A stretch of 37,375 nt of DNA from a virus, in the IMG/VR virus record IMGVR_UViG_3300046028_007538, positions 1 through 37,375 of that record. The stretch is one strand, 5' to 3'. Numbering within the stretch: position 1 is the first letter of the stretch; each line of letters begins with the position of its first letter. Of the stretch, positions 1 to 37,375 are shown piece by piece. Position numbers and translations under genes: made by a program. The notes below the pieces were generated by a model, which made no database searches, was not told the DNA's origin, and saw nothing but the letters and a program-made list of their open reading frames with translations.

Positions 1-32
1 TGGGTAGAGAGGACGTGAATGTCGGCTACCCA
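1..32. other. Inverted repeat at the end of the leftward RHH gene
   Basis: Perfect 7-base arms, TGGGTAG at 1-7 and CTACCCA at 26-32, enclose an 18-base loop. The right arm covers the stop codon of the leftward RHH gene (26-28). It could be a weak transcription terminator or part of an attachment site, but there is no T-tract and the window edge cuts the context. Confidence 0.25.
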
Positions 33-304
33 GTTTTCAGGGAACGGTCCGTCGTAGCTGTTGAGGACCCACCAACGGAACGCTTGTGTGGTGCAATAAT
101 CTTCCGCCCAGTTTGCGGTTGGGCTGAGACGTTTCCCTGTGATTTGTTATTTTTCCAATCGTTAATAATTTCTTGAATCAATGAGGAAACAGTAACCCTT
201 GACCCTCTATTTTCACTTTCTTTTTGGGCTTCTTGGATAAGCCATTTGTGAACATTTGAGGGTAAGGACACGCTGACTTTTTTGCACAGGGAGTCTGATT
301 TCAT
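26..304 (-). CDS. Ribbon-helix-helix DNA-binding regulator (CopG/Arc-like)
   Basis: A 92-residue protein beginning MKSDSLCKKVSVSLPSNVHK. The segment KKVSVSLPSNVHKWL (about residues 8-22) looks like an RHH beta strand running into helix 1, and VTVSSLIQEIINDW (about 38-51) like helix 2. This family binds DNA as dimers of dimers on short tandem repeats. The C-terminal 40 residues are polar and probably disordered. It is transcribed leftward, divergent from a second RHH gene at 463. An octamer ATTTCAAT directly abuts the start codon, followed by GTAGCA-type motifs (314-330), which suggests autoregulation. The same leader precedes the integrase. Likely a lysogeny-side regulator; that role is inferred. 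Confidence 0.72.
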   Translation of the reverse strand: MKSDSLCKKVSVSLPSNVHKWLIQEAQKESENRGSRVTVSSLIQEIINDWKNNKSQGNVSAQPQTGRKIIAPHKRSVGGSSTATTDRSLKTG

Positions 305-462
305 ATTTCAATAGTAGCAGAAATTGCTACCAAAGCAAAAATAATTTTTAGTCCGCAGATGTAGCGCTCATGCGGATGTCAAGTAAAAAACAACATTCCA
401 GCATGGGGTGATATCCTTATTTTTATTGCTACCGCTTACGACTTGGTAGTAAGAAATGCGCC
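305..462. promoter_or_regulatory. Divergent control region with GTAGCA-type motifs and dyads
   Basis: This A/T-rich intergenic region separates two divergent RHH genes. It contains GTAGCAG (314-320) facing TTGCTAC (324-330), another TTGCTAC (426-432) and a degenerate GGTAGTA (445-451). A separate dyad has TCCGCA (352-357) and TGCGGA (371-376). These are plausible operators for the RHH proteins and a genetic-switch region. No canonical -35/-10 pair stands out. Confidence 0.5.
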
Positions 463-633
463 ATGCAAACTGCATTTGTAAAAACCAGCGTGAGCATGCC
501 GAGCGACATGCTGGATTGGCTGAAACAGACAGCCGCAGCGGAAGGCCGCATGCCCGTGTCTCGAATCATCGCTCAACTCGTGAAAGAGAAAATGGATCGG
601 CAAAAAGCGACCAACAGGAGGGCATCGAAATGA
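463..633 (+). CDS. Small RHH DNA-binding protein
   Basis: A 56-residue protein starting MQTAFVKTSVSMPSDMLDWL. FVKTSVSMPSDMLDWLKQ (strand and helix 1) followed by MPVSRIIAQLVKEKM (helix 2) is a compact RHH fold close to the minimum family length. The gene ends at TGA 631-633, overlapping the next start codon by ATGA, so the two are probably translationally coupled. It opens the rightward early operon opposite the leftward RHH gene, so the pair may act as opposing switch regulators, although no binding data exist. The reading frame is supported by the RHH pattern; the other frame running through here from 456 has no such pattern. Confidence 0.68.
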   Translation: MQTAFVKTSVSMPSDMLDWLKQTAAAEGRMPVSRIIAQLVKEKMDRQKATNRRASK

Positions 634-830
634 TCACTATTGATGAGGCGGCTGCGGAGCTTCGGTTGGCTCCGTTCACGGTGCGAAAATATGCCAGGTT
701 GAATATCATCCCGGCGACGAAAGTCGGGCGGTCTTGGATGTTCGACAATGCGGAGACGCTGAAGGTGGCGCTCCAGGTAAAGGGTGGAAACAAACTTCAG
801 CAGGCTCGCTTGCGGGGGAGGATCCAATGA
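630..830 (+). CDS. Excisionase-like HTH protein (MerR/HTH_17 type)
   Basis: A 66-residue protein starting MITIDEAAAELRLAPFTVRK. The pattern of an acidic EAAAELRL helix, PFTVRKYARLNIIPATKVGRSW and a final W/F-rich strand is typical of the winged-HTH DNA-binding domain of phage excisionases and AlpA-like regulators. The start at 630 is chosen because it overlaps the preceding stop (ATGA) and has AGGAGG at 616-621; the frame is open further upstream but lacks such support. In a genome with an integrase, an excision or recombination directionality role is likely, but a transcriptional role is equally possible from sequence alone. Confidence 0.7.
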   Translation: MITIDEAAAELRLAPFTVRKYARLNIIPATKVGRSWMFDNAETLKVALQVKGGNKLQQARLRGRIQ

Positions 831-26810: not shown

Positions 26811-27985
26811 TGGGCGGTTCCTCAGCACAAAAACCAAAGGAACAAAAAGCTCCACCACAAGCGCAGCCTATCGACTACGGCGCTTTGATGGCGCAATCGC
26901 GTGGAGCCGCTAAAGAGGACTACCGCGACCAGCTCAACGCGCAGATCGAAGCCTATCCGAAACTCGAAGCCCTCCAGCTTGGCACGGTTGGCAAGCTCTC
27001 CGATAGCCTCTCTGGCAACAACAACGCCTACACCCAACGCGCCACCAACCAACTCATCGCCGCCGAAGACCAAGTCACCCAACTCGGCCGCATTGGCGAC
27101 TACACCGAGCAGCTCGGCTACGCCGCCGCCCGCGACCTTGAAGGAACGGACATCGAACGCGAGCTTCAACGCCAAGCCACCAGCGAACTCGCCCTCGGCC
27201 GCAGCCTGAGCCCCGAGCAGGAGCGCCAAGCCACCCAGCAAGCCCGCGCCGGAATGGCTGCCCGCGGCCTTGGAGTCGGCACTGGAGCCCTCGCTGCCGA
27301 AGTGCTAAACCGCGATGCCTACGCCACCGAGCGCGAAGCGAGCCGCCGCAACTTTGCTGGATCCACCAATCAAATGCTTGCCAGCAACCGTCAAAACCGC
27401 ATCGGCCAAGTCGGCACCGTCCTCGGCCAGTCCGCCAACACCAGGATGAACCAAGCCAACCTCCGCAGCAGCCTCGCCGGTGCTAACATCACCATCGACC
27501 CCTACGCCCGCGCCATGAACCCCGCCCTCGGCATGGGGGCCAGCACCCTCGGCAACTCCGGCCAGATGATCGGCAACACCTACTCGAACGCCAACCAAAT
27601 GGCCGGAAATGTCGCAGGCGTCAACGCCTCCATGCTCGACTCCCGCTGGAACACCGTGCAAAACAACAACGCCTCCCTGCAAGGCGCCTACATGGGAGCC
27701 AAGGCGAGCGACAATGCCGCGAATATGGGCCTCCAAGGAGCAGCCATGGGAGCCAGCGCCGTCATCGGAGCCGCCGCTGCCGCCTGCTGGGTAGCCCGCG
27801 CCGCCTTCGGCACGGCCACTACTCGTTGGGTGGAATACCGCCGCGCCATGCTCCGCCATGCCAGCGACCGCACGATCCGCCTCTACTGCCAGCACGGCCA
27901 ATCCATCGCCGCCGCCATCACCACGCCACTCCGCCGCCTCCTCGCCCGCCTCACACTCCGCACCCTTCAATGGTCTTGGAACTAA
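26810..27985 (+). CDS. Virion-type protein with a CFI-box-like C-terminus
   Basis: A 391-residue protein starting MGGSSAQKPKEQKAPPQAQP. About residues 20-320 are Gln/Asn/Ala-rich helix with repetitive NANQMAG and GLGVGTGALAAEV segments, typical of podovirus internal virion proteins. The alanine-rich stretch GAAAAA precedes C326, which opens CWVARAAFGTATTRWVEYRR. This resembles the C-terminal motif C-F-I-A-T-A-A-Y-G of the CFI-box class, followed by a basic helical tail. The start at 26810 overlaps the previous stop. The last 16 bases overlap the YcaO gene, which makes the two co-expressed. Confidence 0.72.
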   Translation: MGGSSAQKPKEQKAPPQAQPIDYGALMAQSRGAAKEDYRDQLNAQIEAYPKLEALQLGTVGKLSDSLSGNNNAYTQRATNQLIAAEDQVTQLGRIGDYTEQLGYAAARDLEGTDIERELQRQATSELALGRSLSPEQERQATQQARAGMAARGLGVGTGALAAEVLNRDAYATEREASRRNFAGSTNQMLASNRQNRIGQVGTVLGQSANTRMNQANLRSSLAGANITIDPYARAMNPALGMGASTLGNSGQMIGNTYSNANQMAGNVAGVNASMLDSRWNTVQNNNASLQGAYMGAKASDNAANMGLQGAAMGASAVIGAAAAACWVARAAFGTATTRWVEYRRAMLRHASDRTIRLYCQHGQSIAAAITTPLRRLLARLTLRTLQWSWN

Positions 27986-29145
27986 CAGAGAAAATCCGAC
28001 TCGAAGGAGCCCACCGCGCCTGCACGCCCGAGCAAACGCTCGAGCGCATGCGGCCGCATTTCCACGCCGCAGGCATTACCCGCCTCGCCGAGATCACCGG
28101 GCTCGACCGCATCGGTATCTGTGTCGCCCAGTGCATCCGGCCAGATGCCATAGTGCTGGCCGTAGATTCCGGCAAAGGAGCCACTCCTGCCGCAGCGAAA
28201 TGCTCGGCTATGATGGAAGGCTTCGAGCGCCATGTCGGCGAGACCAGCCTCCCCCGGCACATCCTCGCCACCGCAGCGCAGCTCGGCGACAAAGCCGAGA
28301 CCCGCCTGCCGCTCTCCAAGGGAGCTGTCTTCCACCCCACCGCTCTCATGCCGTGGACCGAGGTGCGCGGCCTACAGAGTGGATCCGCTCGCATGGTGCC
28401 TACCGACACCGTGCGCCTCCTCGCCCGTCCAGACCCCGCCCCGCTTACCAGCCTGCCATTTGCAACCACAAGCAACGGCCTCTCCTCTGGCAACACCTAC
28501 GCCGAAGCTGTCTGCGGTGGCCTCTACGAGTGCATCGAACGCGACGCCACAGCCATCGCCCAGCACAGGCTACAAGATTTTCCCCGTGTCGATCTCGACA
28601 CCATCACCGACCCCACCGTAGCCCGGCTCGTCCGCACACTGCGAGACGCCGACATCACCCCCGTGCTCCTCGATGTCACCAGCGACATCGGCCTGCCCAC
28701 CTACATAGCCTACCTCATCGACTGCGAGAGCGGCTGCGGAGTCAATAAAGGCTACGCCGCTCACCTCGATCCAGCCGTGGCCCAAGCCCGTGCTCTCACC
28801 GAGACCATCCAAGCCCGCGCCGTATGGATCGCCGGGAGCCGCGACGACTTCCTCCACGCCCGCTACGAGATGGTCAAAGCCACCGACTCCTCCGCCATTC
28901 TCGCCCGCCTCTACAAGCACGCCACCATTAGCGCAAACGCCCATCCCGACCGCTCCCGCGACACCTTTGAGGCAGACATAGACATCCTGCTCGCTCTCCT
29001 CGATGCCGCCGGTATTTCCGAGCCACTCGTCTATGAGTTCCCCCACGACTACCCATGCGCCGTGGTGCGAATCATAACCCCCACGCTGGAAGGCTACACC
29101 TTCGACTACTCGCAACCAGGCCATCGCGCCAGGAGGGCGAAATGA
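27970..29145 (+). CDS. YcaO-domain ATP-dependent peptide-modifying enzyme
   Basis: A 391-residue protein starting MVLELTEKIRLEGAHRACTP. YcaO ATP-binding motifs are in order: S79-x3-E83-x2-E86-R87 (KCSAMMEGFER), E187-x2-E190-R191 (LYECIER), and E278-x2-Q281-x-R283 (TETIQAR). YcaO enzymes phosphorylate a peptide amide, letting sulfur or a side chain attack; TfuA-associated types form thioamides. The C-terminus GHRARRAK lacks the Pro-rich end typical of azoline-forming cyclodehydratases, and no cyclodehydratase partner is present. It is followed directly by TfuA (ATGA overlap). The 16-base overlap with the virion gene shows late expression. Its presence in a phage is unusual. Confidence 0.88.
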   Translation: MVLELTEKIRLEGAHRACTPEQTLERMRPHFHAAGITRLAEITGLDRIGICVAQCIRPDAIVLAVDSGKGATPAAAKCSAMMEGFERHVGETSLPRHILATAAQLGDKAETRLPLSKGAVFHPTALMPWTEVRGLQSGSARMVPTDTVRLLARPDPAPLTSLPFATTSNGLSSGNTYAEAVCGGLYECIERDATAIAQHRLQDFPRVDLDTITDPTVARLVRTLRDADITPVLLDVTSDIGLPTYIAYLIDCESGCGVNKGYAAHLDPAVAQARALTETIQARAVWIAGSRDDFLHARYEMVKATDSSAILARLYKHATISANAHPDRSRDTFEADIDILLALLDAAGISEPLVYEFPHDYPCAVVRIITPTLEGYTFDYSQPGHRARRAK

Positions 29146-30158
29146 AAATCTTCCTCGGCCCCACACGCCCCGGCAATATCCCCGCCGATGCCGACCTCCG
29201 CCCCCCGGCCCAGCAAGGCGACATCGCCGCCGCCGCTCTCGAAGGCCCAGATACCATCCTCCTCATCGACGGCCTCTTTCACCAAAGCCTCGCCCCCTGG
29301 CACAAGGAAATCCTCTTCGCCATCGAGCAGGGATGCCGCGTCATTGGAGCAGGCAGCCTCGGCGCACTCCGCGCCGTCGAGTGCGCCCGCTACGGAGCCG
29401 AGCCCGTCGGCATCATCGCCGGGTGGTATGCCGACGAATCCTGCACCGACGATGCCGATGTAGCCCTCGCCCACGGCCACGCCGAAGACGGCTACCGCGC
29501 CCTCTCCATTCCAATCGTCAACCTCCGCGCCACCGCCGAGTGCCTCGTCGCCGACGGCCTCCTGCCGGCGGCCGACCTCGCAGGCATCCTCGCCACAGCC
29601 CGCAGCATCTACTATGTCGAGCGCAGTTGGACCCGCCTCCGCCAAGCCCTCGGCCCCGTAGCAGACCTCCTCCGCGAGAACTACATCGACCAGAAAGCCC
29701 TCGACGCCGAGGAAGCCATCCGCCACGCCCAGCATGTCGCCGCGCCCCTCCAGCGCGACACTCCCCTCCACACGCACAGCGCCTATTTCCTCGCCCTCCT
29801 CGCCAACGACCTGCCAACCGGCGATGGGCAACGCCAGCACCACCTCACCAGCGAAGCCGACCGCACCCTCGCCACCGACCGCCACCTCGTCTCCGAGTTG
29901 GCCCAACTCCTCGGCATCGTCACCACCCCCGAAGACATCTTCGCCGCCAGCACCCGCATGTGGCAGCGCCTCGGCATCACCGACTCCACCGCCGCGCAAG
30001 CCTGGCTCACCGACCACGCCTGGACCGACCAGCAATGGTTCGCCCACGCCCAGCGCGAAGCCCTCCGCCAAGCCGCCCGCGATTGGCACGCCGCCACCGG
30101 AGCCTGCTTCGATACCGTCCCACTCACCCTCGCCCACAAACTCCTCAACCCCGCCTAA
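29142..30158 (+). CDS. TfuA-like partner protein of YcaO
   Basis: A 338-residue protein starting MKIFLGPTRPGNIPADADLR. The TfuA core is visible: FLGPTRP, ILLIDGLFHQSLAPWHKEIL, VIGAGSLGALRAVECARYG (about 67-85), the acidic DDADVALAHG (about 103-112) and GYRALSIPIVNLRAT. TfuA partners YcaO in thioamide formation, probably helping to deliver sulfur, as known from methyl-coenzyme M reductase and thioviridamide pathways. AGGAGGG at 29131-29137 supports the start, which overlaps the YcaO stop. The second half (150-338) is helical, longer than the TfuA core and of unknown role. Confidence 0.86.
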   Translation: MKIFLGPTRPGNIPADADLRPPAQQGDIAAAALEGPDTILLIDGLFHQSLAPWHKEILFAIEQGCRVIGAGSLGALRAVECARYGAEPVGIIAGWYADESCTDDADVALAHGHAEDGYRALSIPIVNLRATAECLVADGLLPAADLAGILATARSIYYVERSWTRLRQALGPVADLLRENYIDQKALDAEEAIRHAQHVAAPLQRDTPLHTHSAYFLALLANDLPTGDGQRQHHLTSEADRTLATDRHLVSELAQLLGIVTTPEDIFAASTRMWQRLGITDSTAAQAWLTDHAWTDQQWFAHAQREALRQAARDWHAATGACFDTVPLTLAHKLLNPA

Positions 30159-36261: not shown

Positions 36262-37305
36262 TCACAACCCCCAAAACCTCTCCGCCTCCGCTTGGCGCAC
36301 CGCACGCGCATAGGTCTTGTTCACCATCTGCGGTGACGAGTGACCGAGGAAAAAGGCCGTTTTCCCCGAGTCCTGCCACATTGCCAAGTGCATCGAGGCT
36401 GCTGTGTGGCGCAGGCAATTCTGAGGCCATTCCTCCCAGCCCATTTCCTGAGTGATTTTCGTCCGGCCGCGCTTAATGTAGTCCTCCTCCAGGCAATCCC
36501 ACTTCTCCGGGAGATGCCGCGTCACCGCCGGCAAGATCGGCACATAGCGCTTCCTCGGCACTGGATCCGTGGACTTCGTCTGCGGAACCAGAATCTCTGT
36601 CTCCTCCACATGCTCCGGCAAAGCCCGCCCCACCTCCGAGGCCCGCATGCCCCCGAAGACACCCAGCACCAACCAAGCCCGCAGCCGGTCATCCTCGGCC
36701 GTCAACTCCAGCAGCCGCGCCACATCCTTCGTTTCCAATAGATGATGCTGCGCCGTCTTCTTCGGCACCTCCGCCTTCAACACCGGCGACTTCTCGATGT
36801 AGTCATATCTGACGAGCCAATTAAAAAACAACCGCAGGTAAACATAGCCCTGCGCCCGCGTCGTCCCGCTCCAGTTTTTACGCTTCAAAAACGCATCAAT
36901 CGTCCTCGCAGACACAGCCGCCAAATCCAGCGAGCCATACTTCTCTGCAAACTCACCCCACCACCACTTCACCAACCGCAGGTGATTCCCTTTTAAATCC
37001 TCCCCCCGCGCTGCCATGAAATCCTTTCTCGCCTTCGTCACCGTAAACCCTCGCGCTCCCTCAAACGATTCCGTCCCCCGGCGCGACAATTGATCCAATG
37101 TTTGCTGCCGAGCCTGCTCCGCCTCCCCCCAACTTGCGAAAAATTTCCTCGTTACTTTTTCTCCAATCCGAGTCCTCAAACGCCAAACTTTTCCCCCCCG
37201 CCGCTCCATTTCCGTAACCGTAACCGAAAATTTGTTGGTGCCACAGGGTGCGACTTGTTGCTGATTCATAATCATAGTGGTGCCACGGGTGCCACGAGAA
37301 AGCAA
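36262..37305 (-). CDS. int: Tyrosine integrase
   Basis: A 347-residue leftward protein. The catalytic set is R221 (GGMRASEVG), K244 (PQTKSTDP), R299 and H300 in QNCLRHTAAS (the usual first H is replaced by N), H322 (LGHSSPQMV) and the nucleophile Y332 (NKTYARAV). An N-terminal arm/core domain precedes it. It inserts phage DNA into the host attachment site. The TTG at 37303-37305 is preferred because the octamer ATTTCAAT abuts it exactly as it abuts the RHH start; ATG 37275 and 37269 are alternatives. The gene ends two bases from the polyvalent gene on the opposite strand, with no terminator between. Confidence 0.9.
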   Translation of the reverse strand: MLSRGTRGTTMIMNQQQVAPCGTNKFSVTVTEMERRGGKVWRLRTRIGEKVTRKFFASWGEAEQARQQTLDQLSRRGTESFEGARGFTVTKARKDFMAARGEDLKGNHLRLVKWWWGEFAEKYGSLDLAAVSARTIDAFLKRKNWSGTTRAQGYVYLRLFFNWLVRYDYIEKSPVLKAEVPKKTAQHHLLETKDVARLLELTAEDDRLRAWLVLGVFGGMRASEVGRALPEHVEETEILVPQTKSTDPVPRKRYVPILPAVTRHLPEKWDCLEEDYIKRGRTKITQEMGWEEWPQNCLRHTAASMHLAMWQDSGKTAFFLGHSSPQMVNKTYARAVRQAEAERFWGL

Positions 37306-37375
37306 ATTTCAATGATAAAGTAGCAATAAGTAGCAATCGGTAGCACGATAAGCAAAAACCCAGCAGACCCAGTCT
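37306..37375. promoter_or_regulatory. Integrase upstream region with GTAGCA repeats at 10-base spacing
   Basis: ATTTCAAT (37306-37313) directly abuts the integrase TTG start. GTAGCAA at 37320 and 37330 and GTAGCAC at 37340 stand exactly one helical turn apart. This mirrors the leader of the leftward RHH gene (octamer at 305-312, GTAGCAG at 314-320). The repeats may be operator sites of an RHH regulator or arm-type integrase sites. No attachment core could be recognised at the right edge. Confidence 0.55.

Follow-up and report, generated by a model that had tools for sequence, protein, structure and literature searches.

Two genes at opposite ends of a temperate phage record, one for a predicted ribbon-helix-helix (RHH) regulator and one for a tyrosine integrase, are preceded by the same octamer and by GTAGCA-type motifs, which raises the question of whether a single regulator could control both. 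The stretch of DNA analysed here, referred to as the window, is the entire IMG/VR record IMGVR_UViG_3300046028_007538 (37,375 bases). The record is classed as linear, contains no exact end repeat of 10-299 bases, and encodes a terminase as identified by Pfam and PHROG profile searches. Two divergent small regulator genes, RHH1 and RHH2, are located at its left end, and the start of the HTH_17 gene overlaps the RHH2 stop codon (ATGA). The coordinates of these and other features are listed in the table. Against Pfam PF00589 the integrase scores 22.4 bits (1.2e-4), under the family cut-off of 27.1. One integrase relative is found in a Terrimicrobiaceae genome contig, and the host of this phage is therefore probably a member of the Verrucomicrobiota. 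In seven related loci (L002, L003, L007, L008, L010, L011 and L014) the integrase and RHH1 genes converge end to end; unlike these, the window has its integrase at the opposite end of the record from RHH1, with both genes on one strand. This layout could mean either that the integration module is reversed relative to the relatives or that the record is a linearised prophage. In the structural-gene half of the window, two adjoining genes on the plus strand (27826-29145 and 29055-30158) have Pfam matches to YcaO (5e-63) and TfuA (1.3e-33), a pair that we take to be thioamide- or azoline-type modification enzymes.

The RHH folds of the two regulators are predicted from weak profiles, mutual similarity and a low-confidence model. 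RHH2 matches the PHROG Arc-like repressor profile (2.2e-4) and Pfam RHH_5 (3.3e-4; 20.8 bits, under the cut-off of 26), and RHH1 matches no Pfam or other family above cut-off in the profile searches. The two proteins are 37.5% identical over 40 amino acids. The monomer model of RHH1 (mean pLDDT 60.6) contains helices at residues 16-33 and 39-55 and no strand, and it has no Foldseek match at E 0.001; neither protein matches the sequences of solved structures up to E 1. Among proteins at the RHH1 position elsewhere, that of L044 matches Arc above the cut-off and that of L046 matches RHH_9 below it. The predicted strands of both window proteins show an alternating K-x-S-x-S pattern followed by a hydrophobic residue and P; in AmrZ, the alternate residues Lys18, Val20 and Arg22 of the N-terminal strand read the bases (PMC3325190, in excerpt). 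The RHH1 tail (window positions 26-100) is predicted to be disordered and ends in a ...STxxxxxRK(T/A)G-like sequence, which is kept in L003, L004, L009, L014, L025, L034, L224 and L046 even with a different RHH domain, as if regulators had been swapped upstream of a fixed end.

Table. Positions in the window of the genes, putative control sites and attachment-related repeats considered in the text
Feature	Position	Strand	Remarks
RHH1	26..304	minus	ORF of 92 aa; predicted RHH regulator, strand motif KVSVSLP
Octamer ATTTCAAT	305..312		six bases preceding the ATG, with the final two of the putative RHH1 -10 box
Putative RHH1 -10 box TACTAT	311..316	minus	six bases from the ATG
Putative operator O1	313..331		inverted half-sites AGTAGCAG / GGTAGCAATT; matrix ranks 5 and 4; kept in relatives
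Element TTGACA + CCGCA-N-TGCGG	353..382	minus	kept across RHH classes
Putative operator O2, at RHH2 promoter	424..454	half-sites 424-433 minus, 445-454 plus	matrix ranks 2 and 3; kept in relatives
RHH2	463..633	plus	56 aa; predicted Arc-like RHH regulator, strand motif KTSVSMP; profiles weak
HTH_17 excisionase-like protein	630..830	plus	Pfam HTH_17 1.9e-7; PHROG excisionase 4.4e-6
Tyrosine integrase	36262..37305	minus	347 aa counted from TTG; PHROG integrase 1.2e-28
TGGCACC repeats, probable integrase arm-type sites	37236..37298	minus	copies at 37236-37247, 37278-37289 and 37287-37298
TGAAAT (37306-37311) and putative -10 box TATCAT (37312-37317)	37306..37317	minus	start geometry before the integrase TTG
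Three putative direct RHH half-sites over the integrase promoter	37319..37348	plus	10-base spacing; matrix ranks 1, 6 and 12
Probable 3′ half of a terminator hairpin	37354..37375	minus	by eye, from the hairpin between the tRNA end and int in L043 and others

The initial annotation had noted that the octamer abuts both starts, and this was borne out. Exactly two copies of ATTTCAAT are present in the window, at 305-312 and 37306-37313, adjoining two start codons on the minus strand, the RHH1 ATG at 302-304 and the integrase TTG at 37303-37305. This number is not above chance (mean 0.90; two or more copies in 21 of 100 shuffles). The hexamer TACTAT is located exactly six bases ahead of the RHH1 ATG in all 11 close relatives. 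A search of relatives for the octamer, as had been proposed, recovered it exactly in the RHH1 leaders of 4 of these 11; at the integrase start it is adjacent in none of 20 integrase relatives, nor does it occur within 120 bases upstream. The most plausible reading of the octamer is ordinary promoter geometry, in which a -10 box ends within it and its other six bases lead up to the start codon. The RHH1 and integrase mRNAs are probably nearly leaderless, and this would explain why the octamer is common to both. In view of its ordinary count and its patchy occurrence among relatives we rejected one conserved shared leader, and a role for it as a signal in its own right is not supported. Since it is near both ends of the record, the octamer was also considered as attL/attR copies; this was rejected because the att core in relatives is, by eye, a tRNA 3′ end upstream of int and because the record lacks end repeats.

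The GTAGCA motifs fared differently. Those at the left end are real, yet they form an inverted dyad, GTAGCA (314-319) GAAAT TGCTAC (325-330), rather than a direct repeat; a second dyad of the same word at the start of RHH2 (463) had been overlooked. The first dyad (O1) overlaps the RHH1 TACTAT box, and the second (O2) is at the putative RHH2 promoter, which is harder to make out, its best -10 hexamer in the window matching at 3 of 6 positions. Both O1 and O2 half-sites are found in the window and in all 11 close relatives, and one operator word thus occurs at both divergent promoters. At the other end, the GTAGCA copies at 37320, 37330 and 37340 were confirmed at exact 10-base spacing, and no such triple array appeared in 100 shuffles. 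We then built a weight matrix from 44 O1 and O2 half-sites of the 11 relatives, which are closely related and make the matrix less rich than their number suggests, leaving the window out, and scanned the whole window on both strands. The six best places are 37319 (15.3 bits), 424, 445, 322, 313 and 37329 (11.4 bits); they comprise every half-site of O1 and O2 along with two of the three repeats in the integrase leader. The third repeat, at 37339 (10.1 bits), ranks 12th, behind five scattered words (10.5-11.2 bits). Among 2000 dinucleotide shuffles of 37306-37375, none reached the sum of the top three scores and 9 reached the maximum. The word RGTAGCAAT occurs four times (mean 0.16; four copies in 0 of 100 shuffles), each time in one of the two leaders. 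The longest word common to the two leaders, a 10-mer, is only weakly significant (reached in 12 of 300 shuffles), and by the same test the L002 leaders share an unrelated 11-mer. These results support, at the level of sequence, a match between the integrase-leader repeats and the half-site of the RHH switch operator.

We then sought to address what the operator word follows among related phages. A search with RHH1 found 14 viral loci. Eleven of them (L002-L011 and L013) have the same RHH1, RHH2 and operators; in L012 the surroundings of RHH1 differ, and in L014 and L015 the RHH pair itself is a different one. Wider scans of viral contigs with RHH1 and RHH2 returned the known phages and L250, and RHH2 had a match in 3 of the 213 genomes of the order to which the genome of L046 belongs. 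In 21 control regions scanned with the matrix, which included 3 of the 11 close relatives and for which the L251 region was set roughly, matches of at least 9 bits per region number four in the window, L002, L007, L011 and L224 (with an overlapping pair in L224), three in L025 and L250, two in L036 and L031, and one in L032, L251 and L252. The remaining nine regions (L014, L026, L027, L028, L029, L035, L038, L044 and L046) have no match at this threshold. L025, L224 and L250, which are outside the matrix set, have window-like RHH strands and at least three matches of at least 9 bits; in L025 and L224 the half-site also occurs in direct repeat, 10 bases apart, at RHH2, as it does at the window integrase. 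Loci with other RHH classes carry other words, repeated at both starts (by eye): GGTAGCACC-type in L027, L034, L035, L028 and L029, AGTGCACC-type in L026 and L046, TTTGTGCACA-type in L038, L041 and L044, and TTGCC-type in L031 and L032. At the positions expected to read the bases, every second one of the strand, RHH1 and RHH2 alike have Lys-Ser-Ser in the window, in the 11 relatives and in L250; for RHH1 of L025 and L224 the script anchored the strand differently (K-K-S), and a reading by hand (KVSVSLS) gives K-S-S. In L014, L027, L028, L029 and L035, RHH2 has Lys-Ser-Ser, RHH1 has Lys-Asn-Ser, and the window half-site is absent. This pattern points to RHH1 as a main reader of the half-site. 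Across the 11 relatives the operators are constant, whereas at least four dissimilar kinds of ORF come after RHH2 (by eye), so the operator does not follow that gene. At the sequence level, the evidence supports an operator word that changes with the RHH pair rather than with the ORF next to RHH2. The TTGACA element with its CCGCA...TGCGG dyad, located between the two RHH promoters, is also found in L002, L025, L032, L038, L044 and others, and in some phages both arms of the dyad have matching changes (by eye).

For the integrase, a query made from the alignment of the window and L007 integrases identified 22 viral relatives of 47-61% identity; single-protein searches had found nothing in viral contigs, phages or plasmids. 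Twenty of the 22 loci were used, L044 and L045 being cut, and their 20 leaders comprise 19 distinct ones; L043 and L007 are one contig. In all 20, a TTGA[AG]A box is followed after 16 bases by a -10-like hexamer ([TG]AAAAT or TGAAAT) and, after a short gap, by the ATG; the gap is six bases in 18 and seven in 2. Directly after the ATG, all 20 have GACGCAAC repeats or close versions of them, read as MDATDATRRN or near variants. The window TGGCACC repeats are in the same place, in the first codons of the integrase, where they encode RGTRGT. No possible start codon precedes the TTG downstream of an in-frame TGA, which is two codons upstream of it; at the corresponding distance from the later ATGs (37275 and 37269), the best hexamer matches no more than 3 of 6 positions. 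The start geometry of the relatives is therefore matched at the TTG and not at these ATGs, which supports the TTG start proposed earlier for the integrase. A -35 box was not found for it (best 2 of 6), and a leaderless UUG would be a poor start. In the relatives, a tRNA 3′ end is located upstream of int, and two more repeat copies lie beyond it where their sequence reaches (both by eye). As the right end of the record resembles half of the hairpin between tRNA and int in several relatives, the att core is probably just outside that end. ARAGORN found no whole tRNA in the window, which holds only the integrase-side repeats. The arm-type repeats are inside the first nine or so int codons in L024-L043 and the window (37278-37298), as if the attachment site had shaped the protein N-terminus.

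The identity of the motif, its conservation, its change with the RHH pair and the start geometry, all read from sequence, make it reasonably probable that this phage has a divergent two-RHH lysogeny switch whose operator is also placed over the integrase promoter. Positions 305-462 would be the control region of the switch, with RHH1 on the minus strand and RHH2 on the plus strand coupled to the excisionase-like HTH_17 gene. RHH dimers would read GGTAGYAA half-sites, in O1 over the RHH1 promoter and in O2 over the RHH2 promoter, and three more half-sites, direct and one helical turn apart, would cover the integrase promoter between the terminator and the TTG. As the probable lysogenic repressor, RHH1 would bind side by side on O1, O2 and the integrase array and keep the RHH2-excisionase genes and the integrase repressed together. 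Here binding, its cooperativity, which of the two RHH proteins binds, and repression rather than activation are what we infer.

The proposal that one regulator serves both genes holds insofar as the array matches the switch half-site and the half-site follows the RHH pair; it fails to extend to the relatives, none of whose integrase leaders among those examined has the site. The 120 bases upstream of int in the 20 integrase relatives contain no GTAGCA, GTAGTA, GTGCACC, TGTGCACA or octamer, and score 6.4 bits at most with the matrix. In the set of 11 close switch relatives, all six readable integrase leaders (L002, L003, L007, L008, L011, and L005 through L021) are also without the site, with a best score of 7.5 bits compared with 15.3 in the window; in L010 the sequence before int is 8 bases long, and no complete int start is present in L004, L006, L009 and L013. 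The suggested search of relatives for the repeats at the integrase was thus negative. A scan of viral contigs for three tandem GTAGCA found 54 stretches, none with a tblastn match at 1e-3 to the window integrase, RHH1, RHH2, HTH_17 or three other integrases. The control recovered 14 of 14 relatives, and the fourth integrase of the panel (L016) is a longest-ORF guess and probably not an integrase. A scan with TGGCACCCGTGGCACC gave at least 119 stretches, and among the matches listed there is none at 1e-4 for the 173 loci L047-L219. The operator word at an integrase is known from one record, close to its end, and is not a family rule. It could be argued that the match is a chance similarity in the AT-rich promoter of a single record, without regulatory meaning, as would fit the ordinary octamer count, the 12 of 300 shuffles in the common-word test, and the searches in which no second phage with the array was found. 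The matrix ranks, the 0 of 2000 shuffles and the 0 of 100 shuffles with four RGTAGCAAT copies argue against this, and we regard it as quite unlikely.

Two further explanations concern the protein that occupies the array. The HTH_17 excisionase might bind it as an array for recombination directionality at attP, in which case its likeness to the RHH operator would be coincidental. Directionality factors typically have direct repeats next to int, spaced by one helical turn (PMC7498355, in excerpt). At this position the integrase leaders of the relatives have a different array, of TTGAAA type and phased at roughly 10 bases, that does not follow RHH type (by eye), and the window HTH_17 protein shares only 41-49% identity with its counterparts in L006, L007, L009 and L013, so its site could differ. 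On the other hand, the word of the array is the RHH operator by a matrix built without the window, and the operator word is constant while the HTH gene changes; this explanation seems unlikely to us. Alternatively, an RHH protein on the array could be mainly an architectural or directionality factor, like Apl of 186, with control of int transcription as a side effect. The array is located between the arm repeats and the presumed att core, with spacing as for Apl at attP and switch. The phage has its own excisionase-like gene, however, the relatives presumably recombine without this array, and our literature search found no RHH directionality factor, all of which makes such a primary role improbable. 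A combined version, in which the RHH protein is an Apl-like dual factor that sets the switch, binds the phased attP array and controls both int transcription and the direction of recombination, is likewise held to be improbable. If true, it would provide an RHH-type directionality factor, in phages that exchange regulator pairs together with matching operators.

Parts of the two-RHH switch that we favor can be compared with known systems. Lambda CI and Cro are divergent regulators with common operator words between them, and CI is made from the leaderless PRM mRNA; they have HTH folds and a different operator layout, and the lambda integrase is controlled otherwise. The window has the corresponding features of divergent regulators and one operator word at both promoters. 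In phage P22, Arc and Mnt have their operators at ant; neither is known to have one at the integrase gene, and the two are not known to have an operator word in common. Arc and Mnt are both RHH repressors used for lysogeny (PMC10516654, in excerpt), and in having two phage RHH repressors serving lysogeny P22 resembles the arrangement proposed here. In Sulfolobus virus SSV1, the RHH regulator F55 maintains lysogeny by binding to tandem repeats at several promoters, its own among them, and no mention of integrase control by F55 was found in the excerpt of that source (PMC5569661). It differs in belonging to an archaeal virus, in being a single RHH protein and in its repeat word. The source on directionality factors cited above (PMC7498355) describes Apl of coliphage 186, one small protein that binds direct repeats with a spacing of 10-11 bases both at attP and between the promoters of the switch; it also describes repression of the int promoter from sites at att in P4 and KplE1. 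With its three direct copies at 10-base spacing next to int, the window is similar to systems with Apl/Cox/Vis-type factors; its att core is probably outside the record. Apl is an HTH protein and an excisionase, unlike the present case, in which the word goes with RHH proteins and a separate HTH_17 gene is the candidate for the excisionase. Beyond Apl, F55 and Arc/Mnt, the window would join a two-RHH switch to integrase control. Our literature search on RHH proteins with excisionase and recombination directionality factor found no paper, and a search by title and abstract, with most subscription journals outside its scope, found no such switch for Verrucomicrobiota phages among the papers listed. 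The principle is familiar from other phages, and these players and their wiring look new.

If the two-RHH switch is correct, a group of temperate phages would choose between dormancy and lysis by matched RHH repressor pairs and not by CI/Cro-type proteins. Operators and proteins would change together, giving about six natural specificities to decode (classes by eye). An operator added at the integrase promoter would illustrate how a phage can link immunity to integration through a small number of base changes.

Finally, a run of 8-25 G is present about 35 bases after the RHH1 stop, before the integrase end, in 7 of the 13 loci examined (L004, L005, L009, L010, L011, L014 and L015); the window ends before that place. 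L014 and L015 are identical over the 3 kb before the RHH1 stop, yet their runs have 12 and 14 G, respectively.
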